NCBI GenBank assembly: GCA_019054805.1
Contig: JAHQIY010000017.1
Location: forward strand, 1,984,001 to 2,048,000
Length of the DNA stretch: 64,000 nt
Reading direction: 5' to 3'
From: Brachionus manjavacas
Lineage: Eukaryota > Rotifera > Eurotatoria > Ploima > Brachionidae
Shown: positions 8,336 to 64,000 of the stretch, piece after piece
How positions within the stretch are numbered: the first letter of the stretch is position 1
Layout: each line of letters begins with the position of its first letter
Notes under the pieces: generated by a model
The model's database searches: none
The model's input: the letters and a program-made list of their open reading frames with translations, nothing else
Told to the model about the DNA's origin: nothing
Position numbers and translations under genes: made by a program

Positions 8336-8408
8336 GCCCGGTTAGCTCAGTCGGTAGAGCGTGAGACTTTTAATCTCAAGGCCAAGGGTTCGAGCCCCTT
8401 ATCGGGCG
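8336..8408 (+). tRNA. tRNA-Lys (anticodon TTT), copy 1
   Basis: The 73-nt cloverleaf folds fully: acceptor GCCCGGT/ATCGGGC, D arm GCTC/GAGC, anticodon stem TGAGA/TCTCA with loop CTTTTAA (anticodon TTT, 8369-8371), T arm AAGGG/CCCTT with TTCGAGC loop, discriminator G. It has no intron and a T-run follows for Pol III termination. It is identical to three other copies in the window. Confidence 0.97.
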
Positions 8409-10323: not shown

Positions 10324-10396
10324 GCCCGGTTAGCTCAGTCGGTAGAGCGTGAGACTTTTAATCTCAAGGCCAAGGGTTCGAGCCCCTTATCGGGCG
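10324..10396 (+). tRNA. tRNA-Lys (anticodon TTT), copy 2
   Basis: Identical 73-nt cloverleaf to the copy at 8336. It lies between the divergent GST copies A and B and is followed by a short T-run. Confidence 0.97.
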
Positions 10397-10705: not shown

Positions 10706-10778
10706 GCCCGGTTAGCTCAGTCGGTAGAGCGTGAGACTTTTAATCTCAAGGCCAAGGGTTCGAGCCCCTTATCGGGCG
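10706..10778 (+). tRNA. tRNA-Lys (anticodon TTT), copy 3
   Basis: Identical 73-nt cloverleaf. The bases just before it (CTGTAA) also match those before the minus-strand copy at 16696, and both have AATTTTTATTT directly after, which points to a fairly recent duplication that included flanking bases. Confidence 0.97.
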
Positions 10779-16695: not shown

Positions 16696-16768
16696 CGCCC
16701 GATAAGGGGCTCGAACCCTTGGCCTTGAGATTAAAAGTCTCACGCTCTACCGACTGAGCTAACCGGGC
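16696..16768 (-). tRNA. tRNA-Lys (anticodon TTT), copy 4
   Basis: Identical 73-nt cloverleaf on the minus strand. The flanks (CTGTAA before, AATTTTTATTT after) match copy 3 at 10706. Confidence 0.97.
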
Positions 16769-17838
16769 TTACAGTTATTTACTATTTTATTAGATTGTTT
16801 AATTGTTTATTATTTTGAAAAATACTCATAAAATAAATAATTTTCACTTAAACTAGAGTATTTTTGTTAAAGAAAAATTATAACAAATGTAAATATTTTA
16901 AATTTTCATAAAAAAAAAAACTGATTTGATCGATTATTTAAGTATCAATTCTATTTTTTTATTTAAAAAGAATAAATTTATTTGGTTCAAAACCGATTTT
17001 TGAATAAAAATAATTAATAAAGAATTTCTTAACACTGAAAGTTCCAATTTTTTTCATCGTTAAGATCCAAAAAGTCTTAAAAAATTTTTCTCATAACATT
17101 AAATGGAAAAAATATATTTTTTTGGTTATTCTAATCTTATATTTTATAAATTTTTGTTTTTATTAAAATAATATTAATAAATTAATTCAAGCAGCCTTAA
17201 TTTTGCCGAATTTTTGAAAAAAATAATTAGAATATGGATAACAATAATAGAGCTCATTTTTTTTTTACAATTAAGAACAGTCTTATTTACGTCGTAACAT
17301 TTCTTATTTTTATTCTACAATTATTTGGAATTATGAATATAATAATGATTTATTAGTTAATTAAAATATTTCAAAAATTACTGAATCTAAAGAAAAAATT
17401 AATGAAAAGCATTAAAAATTCGGTTTTAAGTCAAAATTAATATAGCACTTTGTGTTTTAAGATTTTTTTTTATTATAATTTTGTTTAAGTTACTCAGGCA
17501 GTGTCCTTCCTAATTTTTTTTCCTTACAAACAGTTATTGTGACTTAGGGATTTCGAAATTAATCTACTTCCAAGAAAAAAAAAAAGAAGTCAAGTAATGT
17601 TGAAGTTTATGGTATATTTTTAATGCTCAAAATGATCAAACCAAGTTTTAATTATTAAATAAATTGTTATTATTTGAAATAATAATTGCAGAGGTATATT
17701 TTTGGATTTAACATTCTTTATTCAACCTTAAGGTAAACTCTGCATTATCAAAATTATTATTGCAGAGTGCACACCATCTAAATGATACAATTTTAAGTGA
17801 ATTATTTTTTGTAGACTTATGCAGAGTTTGCCTCTATA
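16769..17838. other. AT-rich intergenic region
   Basis: About 1 kb of AT-rich sequence. I see no genes or repeats that I can define. Confidence 0.5.
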
Positions 17839-18729
17839 CAGCGGTTCTAATAAAATCGTAACGCAGTTCGGCCGGCCGGCGCGGCCTCGGCCATTTTGTC
17901 GGCCCGGCGCGGCCTACAAACGGCGCAGGCGCGGCTTTCGATGGCGTCGGCGCGGCCGGCCTAGTCGGCCAAGTTGTTCGGCCATGTCGGCCAAGTTGTT
18001 CGGCCATGTCGGCCATTTCGGCCAAGGGGTTCGGCCATCTCGGCCGGCCTAGTCGGCCAAGTTGTTCGGCCATTTCGGCCAAGGGGTTCGGCCATTTCGG
18101 CCAAGTTGTTCGGCCATTTCGGCCATTTCGGCCAAGGGGTTCGGCCATCTCGGCCGGCCTAGTCGGCCAAGTTGTTCGGCCATTTCGGCCAAGTTGTTCG
18201 GCCATTTCGGCCAAGTTGTTCGGCCATTTCGGCCAAGTTGTTCGGCCATCTCGGCCGGCCTGGTCGTCAAAGTCGGCCAAGTTGTTCGGCTATATTTTGT
18301 TAGTTTAATTTTGATACCGCTATTAAATTTTAAATTTTATTCGTGGAGTGTTTTACTCTTTTTTGTATCTTCAAATAAAATTTAATAGCGGTATCAAAAT
18401 TAAATTAACAAAAGTAATTAAAATTTTTTGGATCAAAAAAAAATTTTAAGATAAAAATATTAAAGTTTTAATAAAATGTGAAATGGTAGACATGGCCGAA
18501 CACCTTGGCAGAAATGGCCGATATAGCCGAACAACTTGGCCGACTTTGACGACCAGGCCGGCCGAGATGGCCGAACAACTTGGCCGACTTGGCCGAACAA
18601 CTTGGCCGACTTGGCCGAACAACTTGGCCGACTTGGCCGAACAACTTGGCCGACTAGGCCGGCCGCGCCGACGCCATCGAAAGCCCCGCCGGCCGGCCGA
18701 ACTGCGTTACGATTTTATTAGAACCGCTG
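17839..18729. mobile_element. GC-rich foldback-type DNA element with inverted minisatellite arms
   Basis: The ends are inverted copies of about 45 bp, starting CAGCGGTTCTAATAAAATCG at the left and ending with its reverse complement at 18729, flanked by TA (or TATA). Inside each end is a tandem array of a roughly 22-bp GC-rich unit built on TTCGGCCAAGTTG and TTCGGCCATTTCGGCC. The left arm (about 17860-18297) and right arm (about 18490-18690) carry the unit in opposite orientations, so the element is one large palindrome. The AT-rich centre has its own inverted repeat (about 18296-18332 against 18375-18413). This is the architecture of foldback transposons: long terminal inverted repeats made of tandem repeats. 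No transposase is visible, so it is non-autonomous. The G+C contrast with the flanks is extreme. Confidence 0.85.
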
Positions 18730-19149
18730 TATATAACAAAGTATTTTAAATCCAAAAATGTATCTCTGCACTGATTTTAAGAAATAACAATTTATTTCAT
18801 AATTAAAGCTTGATAAACTTCAAAATTCCTAAAAACAGATACTTCTGATACTTTATTTTAAATTCGTCAAAATGATAGATTAAAGTATTAAATTATCTAT
18901 AAATAATAAAACCTTAATATTCTAAAAAAGTATCGAATTATTGATTTAACCTTTTTTTAAAATTCTAAAAAAGGAATGTATAAATAAGTTCTTAATTGAG
19001 CTAAACAAGCTTATTCTTGAGACACTTACACTTCTAATAAATTTCTTAAAATAAAATTATTTTATAATAAAAAATTATTTGAATAAAAAGTGATTGACTA
19101 GCTGACTATTAAGTTTTTGATTTAATCTAAAAAAAGTATCAAGGTATCA
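18730..19149. other. AT-rich spacer
   Basis: AT-rich sequence between the foldback element and the 3' end of a LINE. No gene is visible. Confidence 0.5.
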
Positions 19150-29132: not shown

Positions 29133-29335
29133 AGTGATGTTGGTTTTGCTTGGTTTTGTGGTAAGCAAATTTTGATTAGCCAAATATTGGTTTTCCAAAA
29201 ATTTGGTTGACCAAAAATTCGGTTAGCCAAAATATGTTAACCAAAAATCTGGTTAGGCAAAATTTGGTAAACCAAAAACCGGTTAGCCAAAAATTGGTTA
29301 ACCAAAAATTCGGTTAGTCAAAAATTAAATTAAAA
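29133..29335. repeat. Minisatellite of ~16-bp units related to GGTTAGCCAAAAATT
   Basis: About ten imperfect units built on GGTTAACCAAAAATT / GGTTAGCCAAAAATT lie in tandem. A few units in the inverse sense (AATTTTGGTTAACCAAATTT and onward) occur about 620 bp later at 29955-29997. The pair could mark the ends of an 860-bp non-autonomous element, but no clear target duplication was found. Confidence 0.65.
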
Positions 29336-58199: not shown

Positions 58200-61100
58200 A
58201 AACAACACTCAGTGACTTGAAAACTCAGTGATTGGCAATCACTTGCAACTTTCGCATGCGAAAAAATTTTCGAATCATTGACCTTTTTCAATAATTCGAA
58301 AAATTCATAGCAAAAAACCTATTTGAATAACTTAAAAAAATGTGTATTTTGCTCTTTTTCGAAGTCCCCTAATATCTTGTACTTTTAACTTTTTGGACTC
58401 CTGCAAAATGTATCATGTAGAACTTTTTGCGCTCTTGAATTTGAGCTTTTAATCATTATCGTAGCTAAAAAATTGACCATTTTGCAGTGATTTGATAACT
58501 CAGTGATTGGTAAAAGCTTTCAAGTTTCGCATGCGCAAAACTTTTCAAATGTATAACCTTTTTTTGATCTGTAGAAGCCAAAGTCAAGAAAATTTCAAGA
58601 TCTTTCTAGTGTTAACTTCGGTTTTCTATTATTCGAAAAATTCATTGCAAAAAACCTATTTGAAAAACCTAAAAAAATGGGTTTTTTGCTCTTTCTCGAA
58701 GTCGCCTAATATCTTGTACTTTTAACTTTTTGGACTCTTGTAAATTCTATCATGTAGAATTTTTTGCGTTCTTGAATTTGAGCTATATATCTTTATTGTA
58801 GTTAAAAAATTGACCATTTTGCAGTGATTTGAAACATCAGTGATTGGTAAAAGCTTTCAAGTTTCGCATGCGCATAACTTTTCAAATGTATAACCTTTTT
58901 TTGATCTGTAGAAGCCAAATTCAAGAAAATTTCAAGATCTATCTAGTGTTAACTTCGGTTTTCTATTATTCGAAAAATTCATTGAAAAAAACCTATTTTA
59001 GTAACTTTAAAAAATGGGTTTTTTGCTCTTTTTCGAATTCGCCAAATATCTTGTACTTTTAACTTTTTGGACTCCTGCAAAATGTATCATGTAGAACTTT
59101 TTGCGCTCTTGAATTTGAGCTATTAATCATTATCTTAGCTAAAAAATTGACCATTTTGCAGTGATTTGAAACATCAGTGATTGGTAAAAGCTTTCAAGTT
59201 TCGCATGCGCATAACTTTTCAAATGTATAACCTTTTTTTGATCTGTAGAAGCCAAATTCAAGAAAATTTCAAGATCTATCTAGTGTTAGCTTCGGTTTTC
59301 TATTATTCGAAATATTCATTGCAAAAAACCTATTTGAAAAACTTAAAAAAATGTTTATTTTGCTCTTTTTCGAAGTCCCCTAATATCTTGTACTTTTAAC
59401 TTTTTGGACTCCTGTAAATTGTATCATGTAGAACTTTTGGCGTTCTTGGATTTGAGCTATTAATTATTATTGTAGTTAAAAAATTGACCATTTTGCAGTG
59501 ATTTGAAACATCAGTGATTGGTAAAAGCTTTCAAGTTTCGCATGCGCATAACTTTTCAAATGTATAACCTTTTTTTGATCTGTAGAAGCCAAATTCAAGA
59601 AAATTTCAAGATCTATCTAGTGTTAACTTCGGTTTTCTATTATTCGAAAAATTCATTGCAAAAAACCTATTTGAAAAACTTAAAAAAATGGGTTTTTTGC
59701 TCTTTTTCGAAGTCCCCTAATATCTTGTACTTTTAACTTTTTGGACTCCTGCAAAATGTATCATGTAGAACTTTTTGCGCTCTTGAATTTGAGCTATTAA
59801 TCATTATTGTAGTTAAAAAATTGACCATTTTGCAGTGATTTGAAACATCAGTGATTGGTAAAAGCTTTCAAGTTTCGCATGCGCATAACTTTTCAAATGT
59901 ATAACCTTTTTTTGATCTGTAGAAGCCAAATTCAAGAAAATTTCAAGATCTATCTAGTGTTAACTTCGGTTTTCTATTATTCGAAAAATTCATTGCAAAA
60001 AACCTATTTTAATAATTTAAAATAATGTGTATTTTGCTCTTTTTCGAAGTCGCGTAATATCTTGTACTTTTAACTTTTTGGACTCCTGTAAATTGTATCA
60101 TGTAGAACTTTTTGCGTTCTTGGATTTGAGCTATAAATTATTATCGTAGTTAAAAAATTGACCATTTTGAAGTGATTGGGAAACGCTTTAAAGTTTCGCA
60201 TGCGCATAACTTTTCAAATGTACGACCTTTTTATTATCTGTAAAAGCCAAAGTCAATAAAATTTCAAGATCTTTCTAGTGTTAACTTCGGTTTTCTATTA
60301 TTCGAAATATTCATTGCAAAAAACCTATTTGAAAAACTTAAAAAAATGTTTATTTTGCTCTTTTTCGAAGTCCCCTAATATCTTGTACTTTTAACTTTTT
60401 GGACTCCTGTAAATTGTATCATGTAGAACTTTTGGCGTTCTTGGATTTGAGCTATAAATTATTATCTTAGTTAAAAAATTGACCATTTTGCAGTGATTGG
60501 GAAACGCTTTAAAGTTTCGCATGCGCATAACTTTTCAAATGTACGACCTTTTTTTGATCTGTAGAAGCCAAATTCAAGAAAATTTAAAGATCTATCTAGT
60601 GTTAACTTCGGTTTTCTATTATTCGAAAAATTCATTGCAAAAAACCTATTTGAAAAACTTAAAAAAATGGGTTTTTTGCTCTTTTTCGAAGTCCCCTAAT
60701 ATCTTGTACTTTTAACTTTTTGGACACCTGTAAATTCTATCTGTAGATCTTTTTGCGTTCTTGGATTTGAGCTATTAATCATTATTGTAGTTAAAAAATT
60801 GACCATTTTGCAGTGATTTGAAACATCAGTGATTGGTAAAAGCTTTCAAGTTTCGCATGCGCATAACTTTTCAAATGTATAACCTTTTTTTGATCTGTAG
60901 AAGCCAAATTCAAGAAAATTTCAAGATCTATCTAGTGTTAACTTCGGTTTTCTATTATTCGAAAAATTCATTGCAAAAAACCTATTTGAAAAACTTAAAA
61001 AAATGTGTTTTTTGCTCTTTTTCGAAGTCGCGTAATATCTTGTACTTTTAACTTTTTGGACTCCTGTAAATTGTATCATGTAGAACTTTTTGCGTTCTTG

Positions 61101-64000
61101 GATTTGAGCTATAAATTATTATCTTAGTTAAAAAATTGACCATTTTGCAGTGATTGGGAAACGCTTTCAAGTTTCGCATGCGCATAACTTTTCAAATGTA
61201 TAACCTTTTTTAGATCTGTAGAAGCCAAAGTCAAGAAAATTTCAAGATCTTTCTAGTGTTAACTTCGGTTTTCTATTATTCGAAAAATTCAACGCAAAAA
61301 ACCTATTTGAAAAACTTAAAAAAATGGGTTTTTTGCTCTTTTTCGAAGTCCCCTAATATCTTGTACTTTTAACTTTTTGGACTCCTGCAAAATGTATCAT
61401 GTAGAACTTTTTGCGCTCTTGAATTTGAGCTTTTAATCATTATCGTAGCTAAAAAATTGACCATTTTGCAGTGATTTGAAACATCAGTGATTGGTAAAAG
61501 CTTTCAAGTTTCGCATGCGCATAACTTTTCAAATGTATAACCTTTTTTTGATCTGTAGAAGCCAAATTCAAGAAAATTTCAAGATCTATCTAGTGTTAAC
61601 TTCGGTTTTCTATTATTCGAAAAATTCATTGCAAAAAACCTATTTGAAAAACTTAAAAAAATGGGTTCTTTGCTCTTTTTCGAAGTCCCCTAATATCTTG
61701 TACTTTTAATTTTTGGACTCCTGTAAATTGTATCATGTAGAACTTTTGGCGTTCTTGGATTTGAGCTATTAATCATTATCTTGTATTAAAAATTGACCAT
61801 TTTGCAGTGATTTGAAACATCAGTGATTGGTAAAAGCTTTCAAGTTTCGCATGCGCATAACTTTTCAAATGTATAACCTTTTTTTGATCTGTAGAAGCCA
61901 AATTCAAGAAAATTTCAAGATCTATCTAGTGTTAACTTCGGTTTTCTATTATTCGAAAAATTCATTGCAAAAAACCTATTTGAAAATCTAAAAAAAATGG
62001 GTTTTTTGCTCTTTTTCGAAGTCCCCTAATATCTTGTACTTTTAACTTTTTGGACACCTGTAAATTCTATCTGTAGATCTTTTTGCGTTCTTGGATTTTA
62101 GCTATTAATCATTATTGTAGTTAAAAAATTGACCATTTTGCAGTGATTTGAAACATCAGTGATTGGTAAAAGCTTTCAAGTTTCGCATGCGCATAACTTT
62201 TCAAATGTAAAATCCTTTTTTTGATCTGTGGAAGCCAAAGTCAAGAAAATTTCAAGATCTATCTAGTGTTAACTTCGGTTTTCTATTATTCGAAAAATTC
62301 ATTGCAAAAAACCTATTTGAAAAACTTAAAAAAATGGGTTTTTTGCTCTTTTTCGAAGTCGCCTAATATCTTGTACTTTTAACTTTTTGGACTCCTGTAA
62401 ATTGTATCATGTAGAACTTTTTGCGTTCTTGAATTTGAGCTATTAATCATTATCTTGTATAAAAAATTGACCATTTTGCAGTGATTTGAAACATCAGTGA
62501 TTGGTAAAAGCTTTCAAGTTTCGCATGCGCATAACTTTTCAAATGTATAACCGTTTTTTGATCTGTAGAAGCCAAAGTCAAGAAAATTTCAAGATCTTTC
62601 TAGTGTTAACTTCGGTTTTCTATTATTCGAAAAATTCAACGCAAAAAACCTATTTGACAACTTTTAATAAATGTGTTTTTTGCTCTTTTTCGAAGTCCCC
62701 TAATATCTTGTACTTTTAACTTTTTGGACACCTGTAAATTCTATCATGTAGATTTTTTTGCGTTCTTGAATTTGAGCTATTAATCATTATTGTAGTTAAA
62801 AAATTGACCATTTTGCAGTGATTTGAAACATCAGTGATTGGTAAAAGCTTTCAAGTTTCGCATGCGCATAACTTTTCAAATGTATAACCTTTTTTTGATC
62901 TGTAGAAGCCAAAGTCAAGAAAATTTCAAGATCTTTCTAGTGTTAACTTCGGTTTTCTATTATTCGAAAAATTCATTGCAAAAAACCTATTTGAGTAACT
63001 TTAAAAAATGGGTTTTTTGCTCTTTTTCGAATTCGCCAAATATCTTGAAATTTTAATTTTTTGGACTCCTGTAAATTGTATCATGTAGAACTTTTAGCGT
63101 TCTTGAATTTGAGCTATTAATCATTATCGAAGTTAAAAAATTGACCATTTTGCAGTGATTTGAAACATCAGTGATTGGTAAAAGCTTTCAAGTTTCGCAT
63201 GCGCATAACTTTTCAAATGTATAACCTTTTTTTGATCTGTAGAAGCCAAAGTCAAGAAAATTTCAAGATCTATCTAGTGTTAACTTCGGTTTTCTATTAT
63301 TCGAAAAATTCATTGCAAAAAACCTATTTGAAAAACTTAAAAAAATGGGTTTTTTGCTCTTTTTCGAATTCCCCTAATATCTTGTACTTTTAACTTTTTG
63401 GACTCCTTTAAATTGTGTCATGTAGAACTTTTTGCGTTCTTGAATTTGAGCTATTAATCATTATTGTAGTTAAAAAATTGACCATTTTGCAGTGATTTGA
63501 AACATCAGTGATTGGTAAAAGCTTTCAAGTTTCGCATGCGCATAACTTTTCAAATGTATAACCTTTTTTTGATCTGTAGAAGCCAAAGTCAAGAAAATTT
63601 CAAGATCTATCTAGTGTTAACTTCGGTTTTCTATTATTCGAAAAATTCATTGCAAAAAACCTATTTGAAAAACGTCAAAAAATGGGTTTTTTGCTCTTTT
63701 TCGAATTCGCCAAATATCTTGAAATTTTAATTTTTTGGACTCCTGTAAATTGTATCATGTAGAACTTTTAGCGTTTTTTAATTTGATATTAATCATTATC
63801 ATGTATAAAAAATTGACCATTTTGCAGTGATTTGAAACATCAGTGACTGGTAAACGCTTTCAAGTTTCGCATGCGCATAACTTTTCAAATGTATAACCTT
63901 TTTTTGATCTGTAGAAGCCAAAGTCAAGAAAATTTCAAGATCTATCTAGTGTTAACTTCGGTTTTCTATTATTCGAAAAATTCATTGCAAAAAACCTATT
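58200..64000 (+). repeat. 337-bp tandem satellite array, running off the window edge
   Basis: Equivalent points recur every 337 bp (for example the words TTTCGCATGCGCATAACTTT and GTGTTAACTTCGGTTTTCTA), giving about 17 units up to 64000. The first unit (58200-58500) is divergent and lacks the middle third, as expected at an array edge. Units at about 60168, 60492 and 61148 are shorter: CAGTGATTTGAAACATCAGTGATTGG has been reduced to CAGTGATTGG, consistent with deletion between the two CAGTGATT words. Each unit contains a short open frame of about 72 codons, which I regard as non-coding because the unit length is not a multiple of three. The strand is arbitrary. Each unit contains the palindrome CGCATGCG. 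Confidence 0.96.

Follow-up and report, generated by a model that had tools for sequence, protein, structure and literature searches.

A probable non-autonomous foldback transposon with a TA target-site duplication, GC-rich arms and a readable birth junction in Brachionus manjavacas

Two foldback elements, Tetris of Drosophila virilis and Tm1 of Meloidogyne, are placed in Mutator, or suggested to belong there, in the available parts of two papers (PMC4079207, PMC3169594), and most foldback elements seem Mutator-like, with exceptions, according to the accessible text of the Tetris paper (PMC4079207). Mcmar, which is mentioned in a portion of PMC3169594, is a Tc1/mariner-like element with 355-bp ends made of direct repeats and palindromes. 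TA duplications are described in the available sections of PMC12730594 for PHISTA and ESTA, fungal PHIS and EnSpm-like lineages. Here we describe an element with foldback architecture and flanking TA in a stretch of 64,000 nucleotides from Brachionus manjavacas (the window; positions given without a contig name are window positions). We conclude that it is very probably a non-autonomous foldback (MITE-like) DNA transposon that was internally shortened from a larger element with long inverted ends.

The element occupied positions 17839-18729 exactly, 891 bp from the first base of CAGCGG to the last base of CCGCTG. A TA lay directly outside each end, at 17837-17838 on the left and 18730-18731 on the right, as read from the sequence and from the empty sites described below (six of them aligned at the left TA). 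The terminal inverted repeats, at 17839-17881 on the plus strand and 18687-18729 on the minus strand, were perfect for 43 bp, with the first mismatch at position 44 and three mismatches over 50 bp. They form the outer parts of two GC-rich arms of unequal length, a left arm of 452 bp (17839-18290, plus strand, 63% GC) and a right arm of 239 bp (18491-18729, minus strand, 61% GC), which enclose a palindromic AT-rich centre (18291-18490) of 17.5% GC; the window as a whole has 28% GC. The left arm contained 15.2 copies of a 22-bp unit (17957-18290, plus strand, 74% match), within which a higher-order repeat of 110 bp was evident (17965-18235, 96% match), and the right arm contained 6.7 copies of the 22-bp unit in the opposite orientation (18515-18661, minus strand, 83%). 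Arm-to-arm inverted similarity was 95.9% over 145 bp, and the density of CGGCC/GGCCG was 62.9 per kb inside the element versus 0.24 per kb in the remaining window. The centre was itself inverted-repeated, 38 bp at 97%, around a loop of 45 nt (18332-18376). A 10-bp inverted repeat lay at the palindrome centre, with its inner stem copy ATTAAATTTT at 18322-18331 (plus strand), and the left AT-rich stem was about 107 bp shorter than both the right stem and the stem of a sister copy on contig C14. These boundaries, the TA-flanked inverted ends, the opposed 22-bp arms and the inverted-repeated centre had all been given by an earlier sequence-only reading; the boundaries proved exact and the other features were confirmed, with the unequal arm lengths and the shortened left stem as corrections.

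Folded as single-stranded DNA, the element gave -387.3 kcal/mol, whereas 20 shuffles gave a mean of -155.4 kcal/mol (sd 4.3) and none of the 20 folded as well. Four places in the window contained exact inverted 20-mer pairs separated by less than 1.2 kb, with 163 seed positions in the element versus 17, 9 and 1 at the others. The palindromic fold of the element is beyond chance. Inside the element are three open frames that reach 110 codons or more, one of them extending into the centre; all are readings of the minisatellite, and a gene of its own was thereby ruled out.

Several other features were observed in the window. Four tRNA-Lys(TTT) genes of equal Rfam score lie within 8.5 kb, at 8336-8408, 10324-10396 and 10706-10778 on the plus strand and 16696-16768 on the minus strand. 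A 15/30-bp minisatellite with GGTTAACC-type units occupies 29166-29326. From 58285 to 64000 runs a 337-bp tandem satellite (17.1 copies, 92% match), which continues off the end of the window; contig C17 extends for about 29 kb beyond this point, and the satellite is possibly subtelomeric.

The sequences on the two sides of the element, 17642-17722 and 18812-18735, are inverted copies of each other (82.7%), and the element therefore sits within an older palindromic repeat. By this inverted similarity and by matches across the joined flanks, we assigned 17600-17838 (plus strand, the last two bases being the left TA) to part of this older, MITE-like repeat and 18732-18814 (plus strand) to the right remainder of the interrupted repeat. 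A genome search with the two flanks joined by one TA returned 83 alignment rows from the 40 places scored among 478 candidates. In these, 37 places besides the window spanned the join continuously, with 79-89% identity, and one match, at C8:1388307, ended short of the join. Six of the 37 junctions, among the best-scoring, were read out, and all six lacked the element and had the length expected from a single TA. At the position of CTCTATA-element-TATAT in the window, they read CTCTAGATTT or a similar sequence; the local TATATATA leaves it ambiguous which TA was duplicated, but not that the duplication is 2 bp long. All of these empty sites are paralogues elsewhere in this genome rather than the orthologous locus of another strain or individual, and it is in this form that the flanking sites without the element, on which the transposon reading had been made to depend, were found. 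The window palindrome is a real insertion with a 2-bp TA duplication.

The ends of the element are dispersed through the genome. The 20-base tip occurred exactly 24 times, two of these being the window element, and the 28-base tip with up to three mismatches occurred 70 times; the reversed-pattern control gave 0 in both searches. With a 25-base tip, two free positions and up to three mismatches, we found 129 occurrences (66 forward, 63 reverse) in the 114-Mb genome, versus 0 for the reversed control, so that the end recurs elsewhere, as a transposon reading had required. A TA abutted 42 of 45 inspected ends, duplicated loci counted in, the exceptions being C2:7132850, C3:3693463 and C33:446737; TA makes up 8.8% of the dinucleotides in the window. 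Complete paired elements numbered 14 and measured 240-3174 bp, with TA on both sides in 13 of them; two of the 14, both on C17, agree in length and flanks, as if a single segment had been duplicated. Ten further pairs, chosen among the ends listed, had TA on both sides in seven cases and on the right side in all ten, and two of the three failing pairs (C4 and C9) match in length and in their four flanking bases, which may mean that one locus was duplicated. In all, a flanking TA was missing in 4 of 24 pairs. Yet another pair among the ends listed lies at C3:4466715-4467090. The element ends are one dispersed family.

Two local arrangements of such ends were observed besides. At C6:39327 (minus strand) and C6:49128 (plus strand), identical ends 9.8 kb apart face outward, perhaps through an inverted duplication. 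At C17:709184-709526 and 721549-721891, two 343-bp relatives lie 12.4 kb apart with the same flanking bases, and the tandem unit in their arm is also GC-rich but differs, measuring about 33 bp.

Larger relatives share subterminal sequence with the window element. An element of 3174 bp at C3:3690290-3693463, with TA on the left only, matched both the centre and the ends of the window element, and its arms of about 115 bp are already GC-rich. Further matches to the centre and ends were three C4 copies spaced 13.5 kb, C8 copies and C11:1182886. The largest stretch, from C11:670362 to about 684730 (about 14.4 kb), has long inverted ends that are 94.8% identical over 576 bp; it is an interval, possibly with nested insertions, rather than a proven intact element. 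The right tip is missing in the C11 interval, and the left tip is missing in the one C4 copy that was printed. A 148-aa open reading frame near one relative end had 24 matches in the genome, some of them pieces of one locus, with in-frame stops in 18 of the 24, and as it stands it had no Pfam match. Short, divergently oriented open stretches adjoin it in the C4 copy, and these exon-like stretches matched no Pfam family. On our reading of the frames, the 148-aa frame and the divergent stretches would be parts of intron-bearing genes.

The surroundings of the large relatives contain other mobile sequences. Both sides of the C11 interval (C11:669070-670382 and 685000-685766) look by eye like one retroelement, with integrase-like and chromodomain-like stretches, and an open reading frame to the right of the interval matched the Pfam family Rhabdo_glycop_FD (E 1.2e-05). 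The three C4 copies (C4:3803183, 3816712 and 3830265, about 13.5 kb apart) have an open reading frame for a reverse transcriptase (Pfam RVT_1) beside the large relative.

Taken together, the window element has the features by which foldback elements and MITEs are recognized: inverted ends that are shared and dispersed, a TA duplication with empty sites, self-complementary ends of tandem repeats, and no transposase gene of its own. The suggestion that it is a foldback transposon thus held, on dispersed ends, TA at nearly all inspected ends, empty sites and larger relatives. It may be pictured as a shrunken copy reduced to two inverted ends, opposed to each other with a short loop between them. 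This copy inserted into a TA inside the older repeat, with a TA left on each side. A transposase made elsewhere would bind the shared 26-bp end, perhaps together with the arms' oriented CGGCC repeats, and would move the element by cut and paste.

How the palindrome arose can be read at its centre. The C14 sister (C14:1025687-1026520) has the same central junction as the window copy, although it is without one terminal repeat and shows TA at one end only. In both copies the loop leads into AAAATTTAAT (18377-18386, plus strand, in the window), after which the sequence doubles back with AGCGGTATC, complementary to the inner stem. At nine other ends the same bases occur, with one change in C8, and continue into TTTCCAAATT or a close variant of it, so that AAAATTTAAT marks the point of divergence and constitutes a junction microhomology. 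The nine ends (three on C11, two on C3, three on C4 and one on C8) represent five loci: a single interval supplies two of those on C11, and duplication accounts for the C3 set and the C4 set. The junction alignment had 17 rows, with six chance anchor matches left out. The two stems of the C14 copy, compared from the junction outward across the AT-rich part and into the minisatellite, agreed at 230 of 240 positions. The C14 copy adjoins an open reading frame that by eye resembles a LINE reverse transcriptase, and the window copy lies in the palindromic repeat. Because the same junction is found in two copies with unrelated flanks, the palindrome was, most simply, formed once and then mobilized.

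The C11 interval carries the same 10-11 bases at both ends as a direct repeat, and a deletion between these ends, as in aborted gap repair, would give exactly this junction. We therefore think that the palindrome could have originated when a parent lost the sequence between 10-11-bp matches located in its two long inverted ends, and that the minisatellite was lengthened later through slippage or unequal exchange. Another possible birth is snap-back, in which a single end primes fold-back DNA synthesis on the same 10-11-bp match, instead of a deletion joining the two ends of such a parent. In its favor, the 10-bp inverted repeat and its 45-nt loop sit precisely at the centre, and the stems are nearly identical. 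Angel MITEs are reportedly a precedent for MITEs born from hairpins. Events at short inverted repeats have a precedent in yeast, where the available parts of PMC10622511 report fold-back priming at an imperfect 11-bp repeat (6-bp spacer) and a 5-bp repeat (35-bp spacer), mostly in cells deficient in Sae2 or Mre11. However, 10-bp inverted repeats are common in the window (2.9 starts per kb), and the C11 interval, which is of the parent type, holds both ends inverted, so that a microhomology deletion explains the product equally well. Because deletion in a parent with long inverted ends accounts for the same junction, we no longer prefer snap-back as the origin, though it keeps a real, if smaller than even, chance of being correct.

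The contrast in base composition between the element and its host, called unusual in the earlier reading, is not confined to this copy. The outer 150 bp (or half the element if shorter) had 39-67% GC versus 18-31% in the flanks in all 14 paired elements. CGGCC exceeded GGCCG in the left half of 14/14, and GGCCG equalled or exceeded CGGCC in the right half of 14/14, with several counts of only 1-4. GC-rich ends are common to the paired elements examined. In other transposons, subterminal protein-binding sites look like oriented repeats beside the tips. Because the oriented, tip-adjacent repeats of the arms resemble such sites, the arms may by analogy constitute a putative binding platform that would tolerate amplification or select for it. 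Alternatively, GC-biased gene conversion acting inside the palindrome could have produced the GC-rich arms as a by-product, in which case they would not be functional repeats; the inverted arms are indeed alike, as conversion would produce (95.9% identity). We consider this improbable because the extreme tips and the stems of the centre, although equally palindromic, have remained AT-rich. In addition, GC richness is already present in the short arms of the 3.2-kb relative, and four members with GC-rich ends have an inverted coverage of 0.17-0.24, that is, little self-complementarity past the tips.

Membership in Mutator has the architecture in its favor, since composite inverted ends with variable tandem repeats are described in the available text on Tetris and Tm1 (PMC4079207, PMC3169594). 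These elements duplicate 8-10 bp, whereas six empty sites fix the duplication here at 2 bp, TA; where 8-11 bp would be expected of Mutator, this length rules membership out, and a Mutator-type foldback is accordingly a very remote prospect. That a minisatellite was inverted and amplified in place without ever moving, as the expanded tandem repeats of the arms and the recent-looking 110-bp unit might suggest, is hardly credible given the 129 recurrences of the end, the TA flanks, the C14 sister in unrelated flanks and the empty sites of exact length, which rule it out unless they are excision products.

Accepting that the element is a non-autonomous transposon, we looked for the source of its transposase. 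Of the other copies, empty sites and autonomous partner that had been hoped for, the genome search by the end supplied the copies and the search with the joined flanks the empty sites; in the larger relatives, gene fragments but no transposase were recognized. Profiles for DDE_3, DDE_1, Transposase_21, DDE_Tnp_4 and Transposase_1 detected genes elsewhere and none convincingly between these ends, when the coordinate lists were compared by eye. DDE_3 (150 of 410 candidates scored), DDE_1, Transposase_21 and Transposase_1 had no match within the large relatives, and Pfam searches with the open reading frames of the large relatives and their neighbours found no transposase. By eye, two DDE_3 matches lay within 5 kb of an end among the ends and DDE matches listed: a fragment at C1:5884160, with the unpaired end C1:5882150 at a distance of 2 kb, and a match at C3:4463478, outside a complete 376-bp pair. 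DDE_Tnp_4 gave one weak fragment of 82 positions in the C11 interval, which occurs with identical score and extent at 12 other places, none of them near a listed end by eye. Transposase_21 had two matches in the genome, neither near a listed end, and divergent lineages may escape this model.

The Tc1/mariner superfamily targets TA, and the 2-bp TA duplication found here is a target feature of Tc1/mariner/pogo. TA targeting is compatible with Tc1/mariner and also with PHISTA/ESTA-like lineages. Going further, these may be the ends of a large transposon that targets TA, carries what look like two or more genes with introns and has a transposase beyond the five models searched; its CGGCC arrays would serve as a protein-binding platform, and palindromic derivatives would still arise by microhomology between the long inverted ends. 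We offer this foldback lineage outside Mutator and P, in an AT-rich genome, as a speculation that is probably wrong in its full form.

A literature search yielded no paper that we recognized as describing the element, a result that is no proof of absence. The available parts of the sources allow the following comparisons. Like Tetris and Tm1, the window element has long composite inverted ends with tandem repeats, non-autonomous forms and MITE-like relatives; unlike them, with their 8-10-bp target duplications, it is flanked by a duplicated TA, and its repeat unit is 22 bp and GC-rich versus about 220 bp in Tetris. With Galileo, of the P superfamily, it shares foldback ends, which in Galileo lengthen via internal tandem repeats and recruited inner sequence, but Galileo makes 7-8-bp duplications and has ends of more than 4 kb in its longest copy. 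Mcmar likewise combines foldback-like ends with membership in a TA-targeting superfamily, whereas no Tc1/mariner transposase is linked to the ends of the window element. PHISTA and ESTA share the TA duplication, and the CMCT lineages mostly end in 5'-CA..TG-3', as the window element does (PMC12730594). It differs in that no Transposase_21 lies near its ends and no convincing DDE_Tnp_4 between them, and in having foldback arms, of which the available text makes no mention for PHISTA and ESTA (PMC12730594). The practical consequence is modest, in that an odd GC-rich hairpin is explained as mobile DNA. Since parent-type ends, breakpoint and daughter palindrome are all preserved in this genome, one can read at base resolution how a palindromic MITE was born. 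We rate the element as a foldback family with TA duplication, GC-rich arms and a readable birth junction, of a generally known kind; because the empty sites fix a 2-bp TA duplication, foldback architecture is found in a further lineage, too.
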